NCBI RefSeq assembly: GCF_026229185.1
Contig: NZ_JAGGJA010000001.1
Location: 372,001 to 436,000, forward strand
From: Fodinibius salsisoli
GTDB taxonomy: Bacteria; Bacteroidota; Rhodothermia; Balneolales; Balneolaceae
Direction: 5' to 3'
Length of the DNA: 64,000 nt
Positions within the stretch are counted from its first letter, which is position 1; each line of letters begins with the position of its first letter. Below the pieces are notes generated by a model. That model was not told the origin of the DNA. It ran no database searches and saw nothing but the letters and a program-made list of their open reading frames with translations. The position numbers and the translations under genes are program-made. Positions 39,004 to 45,650 of the stretch are shown here, piece after piece.

Positions 39004-39768
39004 TCATTCTGCTTCACTTACCTCTAATGTAATACCTTCTTCGGCCAGTTGTTCGGTTGATTTTAACTGGATGGACCGGCCATGCTTGTCGCTTATATCC
39101 CCGGATGCCAAATGAGAAGCATAGACGCCCGTAGCTTCCCCCGGAATTGCACTACTTGGTTGTGTTTTATGGTTGCGAATATATGCGAAGTTAATCAGTT
39201 CGGTCACCGTTACCGGACTGTCGTCCAGCTCCTGGGCCATAACCTTGAACATCATCTGTTGCCCTGCGGTGGCTGAAGAGACGAGTCCCGCGCCCATACC
39301 TTCAGGAGAACTCAACGCCAACGGACCATTAATAAAGACATACTGACCTTTGCCACGCTCTCTGAACCGTTTCAGAAAAGTTTGGGCCGTTACAAAATGA
39401 GCCATCAAATAATCATTAATAACTTCGCAAAAAGTATCTACAGAGACATCAATCATTGAGGGAGCCCCTTGAAAACGTCCTAATGATGCAATAGCCGCAT
39501 CGGGTTGCCCAACCTGCTTAGCGATTTTATTTAAAAGCGATTTGGAGGTGGATGGATCTCCTATATTACCGACCATGGTATGAAGCTGTTCAACAGATGT
39601 TTTATCCAGATCATGATTTATAATGTCATTCAATTGTTGAAGGCTATCCTTTGAACGAGAGGGTACCACCACAGTAGCCTGCCGCTTTAAAAGCTCTTTA
39701 ACAATAAAAGATCCTACATTTCCAGTTCCTCCTGCTACGACAACAATCTTATCTTTCAGTGATTCCAT
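39004..39768 (-). CDS. SDR family NAD(P)-binding oxidoreductase
   Basis: A 254-residue Rossmann-fold protein. The nucleotide-binding motif is VVAGGTGNVGSFIVKELL (G-x3-G-x-G type, residues 11-28). The core continues with VVVPSRSKDSLQQL and AIASLGRFQGAP. The catalytic Tyr-x3-Lys is not obvious in its usual place (SATAGQQMMFKVMAQEL), so it may be a divergent or non-catalytic SDR. It sits between the NAT and VOC genes in the operon. Confidence 0.85.
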   Translation of the reverse strand: MESLKDKIVVVAGGTGNVGSFIVKELLKRQATVVVPSRSKDSLQQLNDIINHDLDKTSVEQLHTMVGNIGDPSTSKSLLNKIAKQVGQPDAAIASLGRFQGAPSMIDVSVDTFCEVINDYLMAHFVTAQTFLKRFRERGKGQYVFINGPLALSSPEGMGAGLVSSATAGQQMMFKVMAQELDDSPVTVTELINFAYIRNHKTQPSSAIPGEATGVYASHLASGDISDKHGRSIQLKSTEQLAEEGITLEVSEAE

Positions 39769-39828
39769 AATCGTATAAGGTTTTTAGATTATAACTTATT
39801 GATTTATCAGGGGCCTTTGCAAAGCTCC

Positions 39829-40662
39829 CTATAAGACAGTTTCCTGGTGACCCGTTTTTTGCTTCAGGGTCGATCTTAGCTTTTCTACATTCGGTAGAGC
39901 GAGTTTAAATTCATTTTCGAGCACAATCCGTAATTCATTGGCCGTTTCAAGGGTTTGCTCCTCGGTTGGGCCCTCCAAATGGTGGATCTTAAACGTATTG
40001 CCAGATAACACATAACGACGCCCCGGAGCGGTTCGGGCTGCTATCAGATCATTCACGAAATGGGATTCCGGGTGATGAGAGAGGTACCAGCTGGTGAGTT
40101 CGTAGTCCGGCTGATAATGTTCCTGCAGACCAAACTGGTAAAGCGCCTTCCATTCTTCTTTTATCTGTATCTGTAACAGGTATTCTTCCTCTTTTTGAAC
40201 AAGCCGATAGGGCTCATGTGGGGTCTGTTGAACCATATCCGGCTCCAGCAACATTGGGGCTGAAAGCGTCGATCCGCCAAAACCCACATCTGCGATATAG
40301 CTTCTACCTTCCACCTGAACTAACAGGAGCATATGTCCGCGGGGTGTCATCTCCTCTTCCGATTTATTCCACCGAACCCGGGCGGCCAGCCCCTTCACTT
40401 CAAAACCAATCTGTTGCAACACATTGCGGAACAGTAGGTTCTGTTCAAAACAGTAGCCGCCCCGTTGGTTTTGGATCATCTTGTCTTCCAGCGATTGCAA
40501 ATCCAACTTCACCGGCAATGCCAGTAGTGGATTAAGATTCTCGAATGGGATGGCTTCCGTGTGCTTCTCATGGAGAATGCGTAACGTATCCAGGGTGGGC
40601 GTTGGTGTTCCTTCATATCCAATTCGTTCGAAATAGTTGTCCAGATTTATTGCTGACATCAT
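39829..40662 (-). CDS. Arylamine N-acetyltransferase
   Basis: A 277-residue NAT that moves acetyl groups from acetyl-CoA to arylamines or hydrazines. The Cys-His-Asp triad is Cys71 (RGGYCFEQN), His110 (RGHMLLLV) and Asp125 (YIADVGFGG), the standard NAT spacing. The N-terminus (LDNYFERIGYEGTPTPTLDT, then EAIPFENLNPLL) is typical. The start codon overlaps the stop of the FMN reductase gene by 4 bp, indicating translational coupling. With an FMN reductase upstream, a nitro-/amino-aromatic detoxification pair is plausible (inference). Confidence 0.95.
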   Translation of the reverse strand: MMSAINLDNYFERIGYEGTPTPTLDTLRILHEKHTEAIPFENLNPLLALPVKLDLQSLEDKMIQNQRGGYCFEQNLLFRNVLQQIGFEVKGLAARVRWNKSEEEMTPRGHMLLLVQVEGRSYIADVGFGGSTLSAPMLLEPDMVQQTPHEPYRLVQKEEEYLLQIQIKEEWKALYQFGLQEHYQPDYELTSWYLSHHPESHFVNDLIAARTAPGRRYVLSGNTFKIHHLEGPTEEQTLETANELRIVLENEFKLALPNVEKLRSTLKQKTGHQETVL

Positions 40663-41249
40663 GCAGCCTCCTCATTAATATTAAAACGCAAAGCATCATC
40701 AATCTTTTTCTGATATAAGGCATCGGCAAACCACAGGAATTCATCCAGAAATTTTTGTCCCGAACTTTCTATTTTATCACTCTTCGGGCAATAGTTTTCA
40801 TCAAAGGAACGATGAACCCGGGGCACCAGCCATTTTAACGGCATCGGAAAAGCGCCTATACTCAAAATTATTTGCTGAAGGTGTCGTGATGCATTGATAC
40901 CACCCATTTTACCTGACGAAGTAGCCACAGCACCAATAGGTTTCTTCTGCAACTCACTCCAGAAATAGTCTAACGTATTTTTGAGCACACCCGAGATGCT
41001 GCCATGATATTCTGGTGTAATAAAAATGAGAGCATCGGCCTCGTTCATCCGTTGGCTTATCTTGGAAGCCTGCGTGAGACTGTCTGGATGATTTTGGAGC
41101 TTTTCTTCAAATATGGGCAGCGAAGTTTCAGCCAGATCAATCAGATCACTTTTGATATCTCGATCCTGAAGTTCATTATGCAGGTAATAGGCAGCTTTAT
41201 GTGTTTGTCTTCCCTTTCTAGCGCTGCCCAAAATTATAGCAACTTTCAT
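40659..41249 (-). CDS. NADPH-dependent FMN reductase / flavodoxin-fold oxidoreductase
   Basis: A 196-residue flavoprotein. The N-terminal phosphate-binding loop is IILGSARKGRQTHKAAYYL, and the second flavin loop is ITPEYHGSISGVLKNTLDYF (P-E-Y-x-G/H-x2-G/S-x-LKN). It probably reduces FMN, quinones, azo or nitro compounds with NAD(P)H. It is coupled to the NAT gene by a 4-bp overlap and lies 24 bp behind the double DUF6506 gene. Confidence 0.92.
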   Translation of the reverse strand: MKVAIILGSARKGRQTHKAAYYLHNELQDRDIKSDLIDLAETSLPIFEEKLQNHPDSLTQASKISQRMNEADALIFITPEYHGSISGVLKNTLDYFWSELQKKPIGAVATSSGKMGGINASRHLQQIILSIGAFPMPLKWLVPRVHRSFDENYCPKSDKIESSGQKFLDEFLWFADALYQKKIDDALRFNINEEAA

Positions 41250-41273
41250 AATATCAAATGTTTGTGGTTTGTG

Positions 41274-41870
41274 TTATGATTTATCGGGGAACCCGAATCC
41301 AGCATAGAATCCAAAAGTTGCAATGCCTATGGGAACATCCCCATTGGTTACTTCATGGATAGTATCCGCAGTTTCAAAATCGAACCCGCCATATAGTTCA
41401 ATAAGTGTAGCACCATCTTCGGCTACCTTGCTGGCCAGCCTGACGGCCTGCAGGGTATCACTAACAGCTACGTAAGTCACTTGACCACCCTCATACCGTT
41501 CTTCTATGCGGTCGGTTTGTGGATCAGCATGTTCGTCCAGGATAATGAATACTTCCTTTTCTTCTGTCTGGTTAGCTGTGGATTGGTACCGTTCTTTCAG
41601 TTTTGCGATATCGATGAGTACCTCAAAAGGATAAGTCACCAGTCCCACGGGAATATCATCCTCCACGACCGAACGAACAGCGGAAATCCAACCAAGGCCT
41701 GTGCCTCCACAAAGTTCGATGGATGCCACTCCCTTGTCTTTGGTTAACGTACCGGCAAGTTCTGCTGCTGAGGATGGGTTGGGCGCATAGGCAATGTAGT
41801 TATGATTCAGAGCGCGAAGTTCGGAGTATTCTCCAGCAAAAATAAGGGCTCTGCTTCTGTTCTTATCCAT
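41274..41870 (-). CDS. Tandem DUF6506 protein (two fused copies)
   Basis: A 198-residue protein made of two similar halves. Half one (~25-85) reads YIAYAPNPSSAAELAGTL, ASIELCGGTGLG and IPVGLVTYPF. Half two (~125-195) reads VTYVAVSDTLQAVRLASKV, TLIELYGGFDFE and VPIGIATFGF. The shared pattern is [YA]-x-A/V-x-P/S-x-A-A-x-L, then x-I-E-L-x-G-G, then V-P-[VI]-G-[LI]-x-T. DUF6506 proteins I know of are about half this length, so this is an internal duplication. Function is unknown; the operon context suggests a stress or redox role. Confidence 0.75.
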   Translation of the reverse strand: MDKNRSRALIFAGEYSELRALNHNYIAYAPNPSSAAELAGTLTKDKGVASIELCGGTGLGWISAVRSVVEDDIPVGLVTYPFEVLIDIAKLKERYQSTANQTEEKEVFIILDEHADPQTDRIEERYEGGQVTYVAVSDTLQAVRLASKVAEDGATLIELYGGFDFETADTIHEVTNGDVPIGIATFGFYAGFGFPDKS

Positions 41871-41899
41871 AGCTTTTCAAGTATTAATAGTTATTTATT

Positions 41900-42316
41900 T
41901 TAGGATTCCGGACGCGTAGGTTGCACACGCAGCATCGGTTTATATGCAGGCAAGTAGGCTACCAACAGATATAAATTGAGTACAGCTGCTACTACACCGG
42001 GTACAATACTGGCGGGAGCCAGCGACAGATGGAAACCGATGATATTTACGATTACGGGCACCAGCAGAATGAGCGCCAGTGGAACGAACCGGTTAGCAAG
42101 GAGTGAAATGCCGGCGAAAAGCTGTACCGCAAAAACAAGCGGCATCATATACCCGGATTGGACCAGGGCACCCATAAACTGAGCCGCTTGCTCGGGCATG
42201 GCTGGCTGAGGCAAGAAATGGAAAAATCCATTGAGGCCGAAAACGAAGAACATAAATCCTAACAAAAATCGGCTTACTGTTACTACTTTCTTGGGAAATA
42301 ATGAGTGGTTAAGCAT
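41900..42316 (-). CDS. DoxX-like integral membrane protein
   Basis: A 138-residue protein with four hydrophobic segments. The N-terminal half reads SRFLLGFMFFVFGLNGFFHF then MPEQAAQFMGALVQSGYMMP, close to the protein at 60.8 kb (LMFINAGLNKFFNYMPVP, MPEQATTMFNAMMQIGW), so the two are paralogues. DoxX-like proteins are linked to redox and thiol stress in other bacteria; no activity can be read here. It lies between RidA and DUF6506 in the operon. Confidence 0.85.
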   Translation of the reverse strand: MLNHSLFPKKVVTVSRFLLGFMFFVFGLNGFFHFLPQPAMPEQAAQFMGALVQSGYMMPLVFAVQLFAGISLLANRFVPLALILLVPVIVNIIGFHLSLAPASIVPGVVAAVLNLYLLVAYLPAYKPMLRVQPTRPES

Positions 42317-42369
42317 AATAGGTAGATACTATTTGGTAATTAAAATTAATTAAGAGGTTAACTTTAAAA

Positions 42370-42813
42370 TTAGTCTTGGTTCTTATCCTGCTGCTTGGCA
42401 GCGATGGCTTCTACTTCAAACAACATACCTTCTACAGCCAGCCGTGATACAGGAATGAGGCTTTGGGTTGGAAATTTCTTGTCTGACCAATGGTTTAGAG
42501 ACTCTTCAATGAGCACCCGGTGTTTATCCTTATTGTGGTTAACCACCAGCGTAGTAAGCTTCACAACATCCTGCATAGAGCTATTTTGGGAAGCAAGCGC
42601 CAGCCTTAGATTTTCAAAGGCCTGATGCACCTGGCTTCGGAAGTTGGCAATAGTATCTTGCTGGTGCTGCCCGCCGCCTTGTCCGGCTACATAGATCATG
42701 GTACTGTTGGGCGGTACGGTAGCTATATGCGAGTAGCCGAAGTCCGTAGGATCATATAATGTTGTTGGGTTGGATATTTCGTGCTTCTTCTGTTCAGCTT
42801 GATTGGTGTTCAT
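42370..42813 (-). CDS. RidA family protein (YjgF/YER057c/UK114)
   Basis: A 147-residue protein of the RidA family, which deaminates reactive enamines/imines in its archetypes. Family marks are DFGYSHIATVPPNSTMIYVAGQ, the trimer-core NLRLALASQNSSMQDVVKLT and the C-terminal TQSLIPVSRLAVEGMLFEVEAI with the conserved Arg of the active site (SR-L). It starts 22 bp after the monooxygenase gene and precedes the DoxX-like gene. Confidence 0.9.
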   Translation of the reverse strand: MNTNQAEQKKHEISNPTTLYDPTDFGYSHIATVPPNSTMIYVAGQGGGQHQQDTIANFRSQVHQAFENLRLALASQNSSMQDVVKLTTLVVNHNKDKHRVLIEESLNHWSDKKFPTQSLIPVSRLAVEGMLFEVEAIAAKQQDKNQD

Positions 42814-42835
42814 AGTTTCTTGCGTATTCTCAGAG

Positions 42836-43174
42836 TTATATATTTTCTTTCATTATAGAGTAAACTCCACGATCGGCGGTAATACCGAGGCGTTCAAACA
42901 TTTCAGCAGGATCGAAATTCTCTTCCTCATACGCAGCCTTCACGGTCTTCTTAGCATTTTCCAGTGCTTCTGCGCTTTCCCACTCAGCTATCGTCATGCA
43001 AATTAGGTTGCCCGACTCATCCCTCCGCTGATACACCTCGTGCTTAATAAATCCGGGGAGCTTTTTGATGATATTCGGGTTTTTCCGCAGTCGTTTGGTG
43101 AACTCCTCAATTCCTTGCTTTGGAACTGTAAACTTGTCAATGTGGATGCGTTTTTCTGGTTGACCCATGGGCAT
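42836..43174 (-). CDS. Antibiotic biosynthesis monooxygenase (ABM) domain protein, first gene of the operon
   Basis: A 112-residue ferredoxin-like-fold protein: RIHIDKFTVPKQGIEEFTKR, then KLPGFIKHEVYQRRDESG and MTIAEWESAEALENAKKTV. This is the ABM/YgiN layout, a small cofactor-free monooxygenase or heme/quinone-handling fold. It is the first gene after the sodA terminator, so the eight-gene operon (43.2 to 38.6 kb) has its own promoter or is read through from sodA. Confidence 0.87.
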   Translation of the reverse strand: MPMGQPEKRIHIDKFTVPKQGIEEFTKRLRKNPNIIKKLPGFIKHEVYQRRDESGNLICMTIAEWESAEALENAKKTVKAAYEEENFDPAEMFERLGITADRGVYSIMKENI

Positions 43175-43187
43175 AATATCAGAGATT

Positions 43188-43221
43188 AAACCTCCGGGGA
43201 TTTTGAATTCCCCGGAGGTTT
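43188..43221 (-). terminator. Terminator of sodA
   Basis: AAACCTCCGGGGA and TCCCCGGAGGTTT form a perfect 13-bp stem around an 8-nt loop. On the minus strand it follows the sodA stop codon by about 20 bp and ends in TTTAATCT. It separates sodA from the downstream eight-gene operon. Confidence 0.88.
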
Positions 43222-43241: not shown

Positions 43242-43847
43242 TTAAGCTTCTTGGTAGTTTACCTCTACAGCATCCCAGTCTACGACCTTCCAGAACGCCT
43301 CGACATAGCTACCGCGCTTATTTTGATAGTTGAGATAGTAGGCGTGCTCCCAGACATCAAGCCCCAGGATCGGTGTGCCCTGCGTACCTGCGACATCCAT
43401 CAATGGATTGTCCTGATTAGCTGTAGATGTAATCACCAACTCATCATCAGCAGTCACGACCAGCCAGGCCCATCCCGAACCAAATTGACTGCCGGCTGCA
43501 TCCGCAAATTGTTCTTTAAAGGCCTCAAACGAGCCGAACGCCTGATCAATAGCTTCCGCTAACGCTCCTTCAGGTGCCTCTTTTCCTTCAGGAGCCAAAA
43601 TACTCCAGAAAAGACGGTGGTTATAATATCCACCACCGTTGTTACGGACAGCATCCGAATGTTCAGATGCATTGGAGAGGACCTCCTCAATGGAGGCATC
43701 CTCCAACTTAGTACCTGCTATAGCATTATTGAATTTGTTGGTGTATCCCTGATGGTGTTTGGTGTGATGGATCTCCATTGTTTGGGCATCGATAACGGGT
43801 TCCAGGGCGTCGTATTCGAATGAAAGTGTTGGAAGTTGGTAACTCAT
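43242..43847 (-). CDS. sodA: Superoxide dismutase (Mn/Fe type)
   Basis: A 201-residue superoxide dismutase without a signal peptide, so cytoplasmic. Metal ligands are His27 (MEIHHTKHH), His77 (YYNHRLFW), Asp164 and His168 ([12 protein letters not shown]). Gln156 in GTQGTP and the overall pattern point to the manganese or cambialistic type. It faces a SufR-like regulator across a 200-bp region with a duplicated 17-bp motif, which suggests redox or iron control of sodA. A strong terminator follows. Confidence 0.95.
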
Positions 43848-43917
43848 AATTGATCTTTAGTTTCAAGTATTGTTCCTGTTCACCCGCTAATCTAAAAATT
43901 CTCGCTATTAAACCAAA

Positions 43918-43938
43918 TAAATGCTTTGTTTATTGTGA
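43918..43938. promoter_or_regulatory. Direct repeat motif, copy 1 (sodA-regulator intergenic)
   Basis: TAAATGCTTTGTTTATT followed by GTGA. The same 17 bp recur at 44031-44047, followed by ATGA. The word has AATAAA/TTTATT inverted ends, as a dimeric winged-helix protein might bind. This copy lies 71 bp upstream of the sodA start. Confidence 0.6.
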
Positions 43939-44030
43939 TAATTTCTTTTTATGCGGTCGATAAATAATTGCAAAGGGGCTTTTAATTTCTTTTTGAAGGC
44001 TTATTCAGTACTTTGAAAAAGTTGTCCAAT

Positions 44031-44051
44031 TAAATGCTTTGTTTATTATGA
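44031..44051. promoter_or_regulatory. Direct repeat motif, copy 2 (overlaps the regulator start)
   Basis: TAAATGCTTTGTTTATT followed by ATGA, where ATG is the chosen start codon of the SufR-like gene. A repressor bound here would block its own transcription or translation start. Confidence 0.6.
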
Positions 44052-44674
44052 AAAATGAATTGCCAAGTCATGAACGCGCCGTCTGGATTCTGAAGACCCG
44101 GGGGGCTCAGCCTCTTTCTGCTATCGCGGAAGAGATGGATGTGACCAAAGAGGGGGCTCGATTTCATCTTCTGAAGTTGGAAAAAGAAGGATTAGTGCAG
44201 TCGCAGTCGAAAGCAGAGGGACGTGGCCGGCCTAAAAAAATTTGGTCACTCACAGAAAAAGGACATGCCCGGTTCCCTGATCGACATGCAAATATGACTG
44301 TCAACCTTATAGCCATGATGCGACAAACACTGGGGGATGAAGCCGTTCAAGACGTTATCAATGCGAACGAAAAGCGTACGCTGGCTGAATACGAGGAGGA
44401 GCTCAAAGAATGCGATACCCTGGAAGGAAAAGTGGCTAAACTGACGGAAATCCGAAGCCGGGAAGGCTATATGGCCGAGTACCAGGAGAAAGAGGATAGT
44501 TTCCTGTTTGTTGAAAATCACTGCCCCATCTGTGCAGCTGCTGAAACATGCCAACAATTCTGCCAGGCTGAACTTAATATTTTTGAAGAGGTGCTGGGAG
44601 AGGAGGTCGATATTCAACGAGAGGAACACATCATAAAGGGAGCGCGGCGCTGTGCCTACCGTATTGCCAAATAA
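44048..44674 (+). CDS. SufR-like winged-helix transcriptional regulator with Cys motif
   Basis: A 208-residue regulator from ATG 44048 (a TTG at 44039 in frame adds three residues). Residues 5-70 are a winged helix (GAQPLSAIAEEMDVTKEGAR, then FHLLKLEKEGLVQ). The C-terminal part holds a Cys cluster: HCPICAAAETCQQFC, then a last Cys in GARRCAYRI. This C-x2-C-x5-C-x3-C...C layout is that of SufR-like regulators, which bind an Fe-S cluster or metal. The gene faces sodA; the shared 17-bp repeats suggest it controls both itself and sodA (inference). Confidence 0.85.
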   Translation: MKNELPSHERAVWILKTRGAQPLSAIAEEMDVTKEGARFHLLKLEKEGLVQSQSKAEGRGRPKKIWSLTEKGHARFPDRHANMTVNLIAMMRQTLGDEAVQDVINANEKRTLAEYEEELKECDTLEGKVAKLTEIRSREGYMAEYQEKEDSFLFVENHCPICAAAETCQQFCQAELNIFEEVLGEEVDIQREEHIIKGARRCAYRIAK

Positions 44675-45161: not shown

Positions 45162-45650
45162 ATGGAAACGATAAAGCTGATTATCCTTATTGGTATGGTA
45201 ACCTTTACGGGACTTACGGCCGGACTGTTTTTTGCCTGGTCGTGCTCGGTAATGCCCGGATTATCCCGGGTCCCAGACAGGGTGTTTATAACAGCTATGC
45301 AATCCATGAATCGAGCGATTCAAAATCCACTCTTTTTTAGCATTTTCTTCGGTGCAGCCCTGCTTCTTCCGCTATCGTCATACCTATTCCATGGTGTTGC
45401 ATTGGTTTTTGAGTTATTGGTCGGCGCCACCATTGTCTACTGGGTCGGCGTCATAGGCGTAACTATTTCTGGTAATGTACCACTTAATAACAAGCTTGAA
45501 AGTTTTCAGTTAGCCTCAGTTTCCGAAGATGACATGTTTAAGATTCGCGAGGGATTTGAATCTCGCTGGAACCGATTAAACCATGTACGAACAATTGCTT
45601 CTACCGTAACGCTGGTGCTGACCATTACCGCAACCCTTCTTTTGCATTAG
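45162..45650 (+). CDS. DUF1772 (anthrone-oxygenase-like) membrane protein
   Basis: A 162-residue protein with four hydrophobic segments. Family marks are FTGLTAGLFFAWSCSVMPGL near the start, FITAMQSMNRAIQNPLFF and the later VTISGNVPLNNKLESFQL, a typical DUF1772 pattern (G-N-V-P-L-N). The family is named for a tentative anthrone oxygenase role, which I do not infer here. It lies 31 bp behind the small DCDNVLR gene, on the same strand. Confidence 0.88.
   Translation: METIKLIILIGMVTFTGLTAGLFFAWSCSVMPGLSRVPDRVFITAMQSMNRAIQNPLFFSIFFGAALLLPLSSYLFHGVALVFELLVGATIVYWVGVIGVTISGNVPLNNKLESFQLASVSEDDMFKIREGFESRWNRLNHVRTIASTVTLVLTITATLLLH

Follow-up and report, generated by a model that had tools for sequence, protein, structure and literature searches.

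SufR is the closest described system. According to PMC8593673, PMC13421787 and PMC7058544, it is a regulator that binds CAAC-N6-GTTG, holds a [4Fe-4S] cluster and is dedicated to suf. The 2021 review (PMC8593673) confines it to Cyanobacteria and some Actinobacteria, where it is dedicated to the suf locus, and the 2026 review (PMC13421787) adds ftrC as a target, a gene that is co-transcribed with suf. On the cluster ligands the two reviews disagree, with C-X12-C-X13-C-X14-C given in PMC8593673 and C164/C171/C206 in PMC13421787. According to PMC6034842, Rv1460 needs C203, C216 and C244, a set whose spacing we computed from these residue numbers as C203-X12-C216-X27-C244. The same paper describes, for cyanobacterial SufR, a high-affinity site before the target and a low-affinity site before sufR, and the sufR promoter of Streptomyces avermitilis carries a CAAC-N6-GTTG operator (as cited in PMC11995493). 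A connection between superoxide dismutase and Fe-S-based regulation is found in PMC12594620, where apo-IscR activity is raised in Escherichia coli without SodA and SodB. A SufR-family switch on sodA in Bacteroidota was not described in the literature searched, which consisted of open-licence papers only.

The locus studied here lies in a 64-kb stretch of DNA, the whole of which we call the window. There, sodA (43242..43847, − strand) and the gene of a SufR-superfamily winged-helix regulator of 208 aa (44048..44674, + strand) are divergent and 200 bp apart (43848-44047). The earlier note on this DNA had placed sodA beside a SufR-like regulator with a cysteine cluster, and both the neighbourhood and the cysteines (159, 162, 168, 172 and 202) are as it described them. 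SodA is an Fe/Mn superoxide dismutase (PF02777, E 1.8e-42; PF00081, E 1.9e-29); its best NCBIfam match is SOD [Mn] (PRK10925, E 1e-68, below the cut-off of that model), and it has an ANQD motif, which we take to mark the Mn type.

The best curated match of the regulator is SufR_cyano (TIGR02702, E 2.1e-33), the family of cyanobacterial SufR (Synechocystis sll0088), and the homology is nearly full length (residues 17-206 on model positions 12-208 of 208). With 115.8 bits vs 178.8 bits, the equivalog cut-off is missed, and the label "SufR-like" holds at the level of the superfamily. All of the 16 members of alignment A1 match TIGR02702 at E 1e-5 or better. A PadR match (PF03551, 28.5 bits vs a gathering threshold of 27) covers only residues 41-76, a part of the DNA-binding domain, and since a PadR C-terminal domain is absent from the regulator's Pfam match list, it was taken as a winged-helix match of a generic kind. 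The AlphaFold model (7 sequences; mean pLDDT 79.4, pTM 0.58) combines a winged helix with a C-terminal sheet domain; the Foldseek matches listed had low query TM-scores (0.28-0.35), most of them being winged-helix regulators, and a sequence search of solved structures with the regulator returned no SufR and nothing at E < 0.01. IscR and SoxR, Fe-S regulators of the responses to redox cycling and superoxide, resemble the proposed system in exerting Fe-S-based control of oxidative defence, but they come from other protein families (Rrf2 for IscR, MerR for SoxR), and the window regulator has only a weak, sub-threshold Rrf2 match in Pfam.

Relatives of the regulator were collected as 82 distinct orthologue loci. 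Ten of them (55-100% identity, in nine genomes) came from a scan of 92 Balneolaceae genomes, one was new among named records (five others duplicated Balneolaceae loci), six came from the phylum, two from the class, 62 were new from the largest family (f26) and one was new from another family. Because 65/82 loci belong to that one largest family, the counts given below are not independent. Left out of the 82 were 38 of the 48 Balneolaceae rows, which are SufR-like paralogues at 21-31% identity; for the 21 of these weak paralogues that were examined as loci (L018-L038), neither suf (searched with queries from L060) nor sodA was found within ~1.5 kb. Named close relatives occur in four Balneolaceae metagenome-assembled genomes, Gracilimonas mengyeensis and Membranihabitans maritimus. 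The regulator is uncommon, with matches in 11/394 genomes of the phylum at E 1e-30 and 4/396 genomes of one class at 1e-40; by family, it is present in 65/246 genomes of the largest and in 2/249 of another. In a tree of 40 rows, built from 29 of the 82 loci and 11 of the 38 excluded paralogues, the regulator clade stands apart from the paralogues with a support of 100/100.

A divergent sodA lies within 400 bp of the regulator in 65 of the 82 loci, and the remaining 17 are without a directly divergent sodA; in L055 and L056, sodA is ~2 kb off behind a gene for a GWxTD-domain protein, and the sodA match of L056 spans only 67 residues. The earlier note had called a sodA-linked SufR an unusual wiring. 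This is so against the literature searched, but within the clade the wiring is the usual one, with the reservation that one family contributes 65 of the 82 loci. Beyond sodA, a DUF2480 gene follows in 60/65 sodA-linked loci, and a piece of an FMN reductase gene was present in 61/65 (strand not checked). The FMN reductase gene of the window (40659-41249) lies outside the short locus that was used for the latter count.

Compared with the published ligand sets, the cysteines of the window regulator fit in part. Only C-X12-C of the set in the 2021 review is found, the residue that X13 would call for is not a cysteine, and the spacing of C164/C171/C206 is unmatched. The three cysteines that Rv1460 needs do have a parallel: C159-X12-C172-X29-C202 is present in 82/82 orthologues, and the last gap is longer by two residues. 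C168 is likewise invariant in 82/82 and C162 is found in 75/82, so that the window regulator has two conserved cysteines in addition to the SufR-like ones. These additional residues and the misfit to some of the ligand sets would also suit a regulator that binds the operators described below but senses quinones, thiol oxidation or a metal such as copper or zinc and holds no Fe-S cluster. We regard this as rather unlikely, given that the residues matching the Rv1460 set are kept without exception; further points on both sides come from the relatives and are taken up with them. An Fe-S cluster held by the C-terminal cysteines is the reading that we prefer.

The earlier note had drawn attention to a 17-bp direct repeat in the divergent region, and an exact search of the 64-kb window bears this out: TAAATGCTTTGTTTATT occurs twice, both times on the + strand, at 43918-43934 and 44031-44047. 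With up to three mismatches there are three matches in the window, a number reached by 0/100 dinucleotide shuffles, and the longest exact repeat of the intergenic region (43848-44047) is 17 nt compared to a maximum of 12 nt over 400 dinucleotide shuffles. Both copies are enclosed in a looser 29-nt direct repeat with 90% identity and 113-nt spacing (43913-43941 and 44026-44054). The second copy had been described as overlapping the start codon of the regulator. It abuts it instead, ending at 44047 directly before the ATG (44048-44050), which is spanned only by the 29-nt repeat. In the own genome, no 17-mer with 0-1 mismatch was found outside the two copies; with 2-3 mismatches there were 17 forward and 29 reverse matches (the two copies included), only somewhat more than the 15 and 19 of the reversed-pattern control. 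A functionless repeat that arose by chance or by a recent local duplication in AT-rich DNA would account for a 17-mer that is identical even in its spacer, but a repeat beyond anything in the shuffles, at sites conserved across several families, makes this extremely improbable.

The unit that is conserved in relatives is a 28-bp palindrome in the intergenic region, which reads AATAAAACAAC-N6-GTTGTTTTATT in the largest family and AATAAACAAA-N8-TTTGTTTATT in Balneolaceae. Scored with one or the other consensus, the best site lies above each of 60 shuffles of its own region in 63/65 sodA-linked loci and in 9/17 others, counts that lean towards the consensuses because part of these loci had served to derive them; the two sodA-linked loci whose best site does not exceed the shuffles are L095 and L191. 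The 72 sites with a signal comprise 50 different sequences. Depending on the arm pair, 55 to 72 of the 72 sites have complementary bases, a range that is favoured by the choice of sites with a palindromic consensus; spacer pairs are complementary in 76/216. In pair 4, A-T is found in 61 sites and T-A in 7, and in pair 11, C-G in 56 and G-C in 8. These symmetric double-sided changes depart from the consensus and therefore point to a dimer site, and we infer that the regulator would bind the palindrome as a dimer. The core is CAAC-N6-GTTG in most relatives (e.g., L061 and L063), as in the SufR literature cited above, and CAAG-N6-CTTG in others.

Each copy of the direct repeat holds the conserved half of this inverted repeat. 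Hence, the operator is the palindrome; an operator in the form of a direct repeat was considered and rejected, and what looks like one in the window consists of two right halves. The two copies that had been reported are real, but as a unit the direct repeat gives way to the 28-bp imperfect palindrome. Operator 1 (43907..43934, unstranded; ATTAAACCAAATAAATGCTTTGTTTATT) includes the first 17-mer, is conserved in relatives and agrees with the Balneolaceae consensus at 18/20 positions compared to a maximum of 16 in 300 shuffles, its arm pairs being complementary at 8/11. Operator 2 (44020..44047, unstranded; AGTTGTCCAATTAAATGCTTTGTTTATT) is a degenerate copy that includes the second 17-mer and abuts the ATG of the regulator; it has one perfect half-site (right half, 10/10), and as a whole, with 15/20 consensus positions, it is within the shuffle range (maximum 16). 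Both differ from cyanobacterial SufR sites in that the window palindrome has diverged and is without the CAAC/GTTG core, while its length of 28 bp is that of the palindrome in relatives. Since the window operator is imperfect, the strict palindrome pattern has no match in the own genome; in the pattern searches of that genome, the palindrome was seen at the sodA site only and nowhere else.

The layout as such, two divergent genes of which the target has the stronger site and the regulator the weaker, resembles that of the cyanobacterial system, although strong and weak are judged here by sequence only. A search with the whole 28-mer for the second operator stopped short of the ATG and missed the site in the largest family, and half-site counts were used instead, for which one of six words had to occur in a 39-nt stretch closing with the start codon. 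An exact half-site is present at the regulator start in 59/65 sodA-linked loci (61 with one mismatch) vs 13/574 control stretches taken between the sites. The earlier note had named in advance conservation next to orthologous sodA-regulator pairs as the check on the repeat, and this check came out in its favour, with the palindrome in 63/65 and the exact start half-site in 59/65; at least in L044, the same site accounts for both counts. Conservation of both copies in their exact form goes less far. Of the seven Balneolaceae-type regions, both sites are kept in four (the window, G011, G010 and G064), whereas G021 and G065 have only the sodA-proximal operator 1, and Membranihabitans has a single palindrome between both genes, at the ATG. 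The operators are 113 nt apart in the window, 133 in G011, 144 in G010 and 115 in G064 (start to start), and because this spacing varies, no helical phasing or looping between them is claimed.

In the largest family, the palindrome is tied to the regulator. With the exact pattern ATAAAACAA-N8-TTGTTTTAT (18 fixed bases), 197 genomes of the largest family were scanned, and exact palindromes were found in 26/37 regulator-positive vs 0/160 regulator-negative genomes (Fisher p 4e-24, ignoring kinship). All 26 sites lie 117-128 bp upstream of the regulator match. A one-mismatch site is present at the regulator in five more genomes of this family; one-mismatch sites elsewhere numbered 23, and the control with the reversed pattern gave 19. 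Every exact match in Balneolaceae (G011, G021, G063 and G065) falls at the locus of sodA and the regulator or at a rearranged version of it. When up to two mismatches are allowed, 19/92 genomes have a match; 8 of these are at this locus, and the other 11, in genomes that lack a close orthologue, correspond roughly to the control level. Orthology of the regulator, its pairing with a partner gene and the conservation of a symmetric operator are shown by these comparisons, as is, for the families scanned, the place of the operator beside the regulator.

Closer inspection of the sodA side revealed a candidate promoter (43887..43916, − strand; TTG, N19, TAGATTAG), a weak match read by eye. Its −33 TTG (43914-43916) lies inside operator 1 and its −7-like box TAGATTAG at 43887-43894, where the promoter consensus of Bacteroidota is a −33 TTG and a −7 TAnnTTTG. 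The pattern TTG-N17-21-TAN(N)TTTG on the sodA strand, with the TTG in the operator arm, is found in 35/39 sodA-linked regions (counted without a shuffle control; 7 Balneolaceae-type and 36 other regions, minus four without sodA), and in its strict form it is missing from four of these 39, namely the window, L011, L017 and L095. A scan for sigma-70 promoters gave 11 sites vs 11.8 expected and was uninformative. These sequences strongly suggest that in relatives the −33 element of the sodA promoter lies within the palindrome, and a natural reading is that a repressor would block RNA polymerase at sodA and at the regulator start. On the regulator side, a like box ends ~9 nt before the start-codon half-site in 16/36 of the other regions. 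The TTTG-containing sites themselves resemble a −7 box, and the second copy of the repeat ends at the ATG; the repeat could accordingly be an element for promoter function or translation start that the regulator gene has in duplicate, and not a repressor site. Such an element would, however, hardly account for symmetric double changes in both arms or for exact palindromes only beside the regulator in the family scanned, and separate TAnnTTTG boxes stand beside the sites in relatives, which makes this alternative very unlikely. Repressor sites remain our interpretation of the palindromes.

Just 3' of the sodA stop and before the gene of an ABM-domain protein, there is a strong RNA hairpin (43188..43221, − strand; MFE −25.2 kcal/mol, z −5.42 vs shuffles). 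It was not among the calls of a simple terminator scan and is likely a terminator or a transcript 3' end. Farther along the same strand, seven closely spaced genes (39004-43174) have the look of a detoxification operon: ABM monooxygenase, RidA-like, DoxX-like (below cut-off), DUF6506, FMN reductase, arylamine N-acetyltransferase and short-chain dehydrogenase. A single operon of sodA and these seven genes is not claimed, since the strong hairpin suggests that sodA is mostly transcribed alone. On the other side of the regulator, 45162-45650 encodes a membrane protein resembling anthrone oxygenases, with a further match to the model of ChrI, a helper in chryseobasin maturation (172 bits, below cut-off).

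Among the loci without a directly divergent sodA, the regulator has other partners. In seven loci (L065, L171, L179, L181, L182, L183 and L189), a small cupredoxin gene takes the place of sodA and the palindrome is CAAG-N6-CTTG, which in L182 is not above shuffles; azurin/plastocyanin (PF00127) was assigned by Pfam in L065, L171, L181, L182 and L189 and by sequence likeness in L179 and L183. The four azurin-linked rows of the tree form one group (100/99) nested among sodA-linked rows. In L060 (4018-7423), the orthologue is located beside sufA-sufB-sufC, with a weak CAAG-N6-CTTG site between them that is not above shuffles, and this orthologue may control suf in Bacteroidota. By the neighbours read, it is the only suf-adjacent locus (1/82), and its row is at an unresolved fork of the tree; the own sufB is on another contig (C33), apart from the window regulator. 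L062 and L117 have the regulator facing a DUF2480 gene without an adjacent sodA, and the DUF2480 protein, whose function is unknown, may belong to the same stress response. In L052 (G011), the operator faces a BNR-repeat gene, followed by FMN reductase and N-acetyltransferase genes, as if sodA had been replaced. L184 and L185 have the regulator away from sodA, and in L185 it follows a gene of the beta-lactamase family (PF00144); at the start codon, a half-site with one mismatch persists in both. The row of Membranihabitans (Saprospiraceae) joins the window row with a support of 92/94 (starred), and a transfer of its regulator is possible.

These partners bear on the nature of the signal. The azurin/plastocyanin partner in one clade and the FMN reductase gene piece near so many sodA loci are what one might expect if a metal, thiols or quinones were sensed without a cluster; against this, most relatives share their operator core with the [4Fe-4S] SufR, and one orthologue adjoins sufA-sufB-sufC. 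Taken together, the core of the operator in relatives, the arrangement of the sites, the cysteines that parallel Rv1460 and the sequence family agree with one another, and the regulator is therefore best described, from its sequence, as a member of the SufR superfamily that works like SufR. Target and equivalog score disagree with SufR, and for this reason it is not filed as SufR proper: cyanobacterial SufR targets sufBCDS, and in Actinobacteria (Rv1460; S. avermitilis) sufR is located in the suf operon, whereas the gene described here stands alone and is divergent from sodA.

In our model, to which we give a probability of about 0.8, the regulator would be a local, autoregulating SufR-family Fe-S repressor of the Mn-type sodA that acts via both operators and loses its hold on cluster damage. 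The earlier note had proposed an autoregulated sensor of iron-sulfur or oxidative state that controls sodA, and the comparison with relatives supports this well. The C-terminal cysteines would hold the Fe-S cluster, and a dimer on operator 1 would cover the −33 element of the divergent promoter of sodA and keep the Mn-type superoxide dismutase off. At operator 2, the weaker half-palindrome at its own start codon, the regulator would damp its own expression. Superoxide, oxidative stress or iron shortage would damage, reduce or remove the cluster and weaken the binding, and sodA and the regulator gene would then be derepressed. The type of cluster, repression, autoregulation and the signal are taken here by analogy from the SufR family, and DNA binding and cluster sensing by the regulator are presumed.

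More tentatively, and with less than even confidence, the regulator and its palindrome may be a portable single-target switch of Bacteroidota for superoxide defence that has been re-paired several times. Its main job would be sodA with DUF2480 and FMN reductase, and it would have been re-paired with azurin, DUF2480, the BNR-repeat gene and suf. Such a switch would take the place that SoxR/SoxS has in enterobacteria, with superoxide being sensed by cluster damage and answered by an iron-free Mn superoxide dismutase.

In sum, our data suggest that in some Bacteroidota a SufR-like switch controls sodA instead of the suf genes. In most members of this SufR-like clade, the SufR operator core and the two-site layout have been kept and the partner is a superoxide dismutase. 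If the model is true, it offers a testable answer to the question of how these bacteria induce sodA, and it would mean that a repressor of Fe-S biogenesis can be rewired into a sensor of superoxide.
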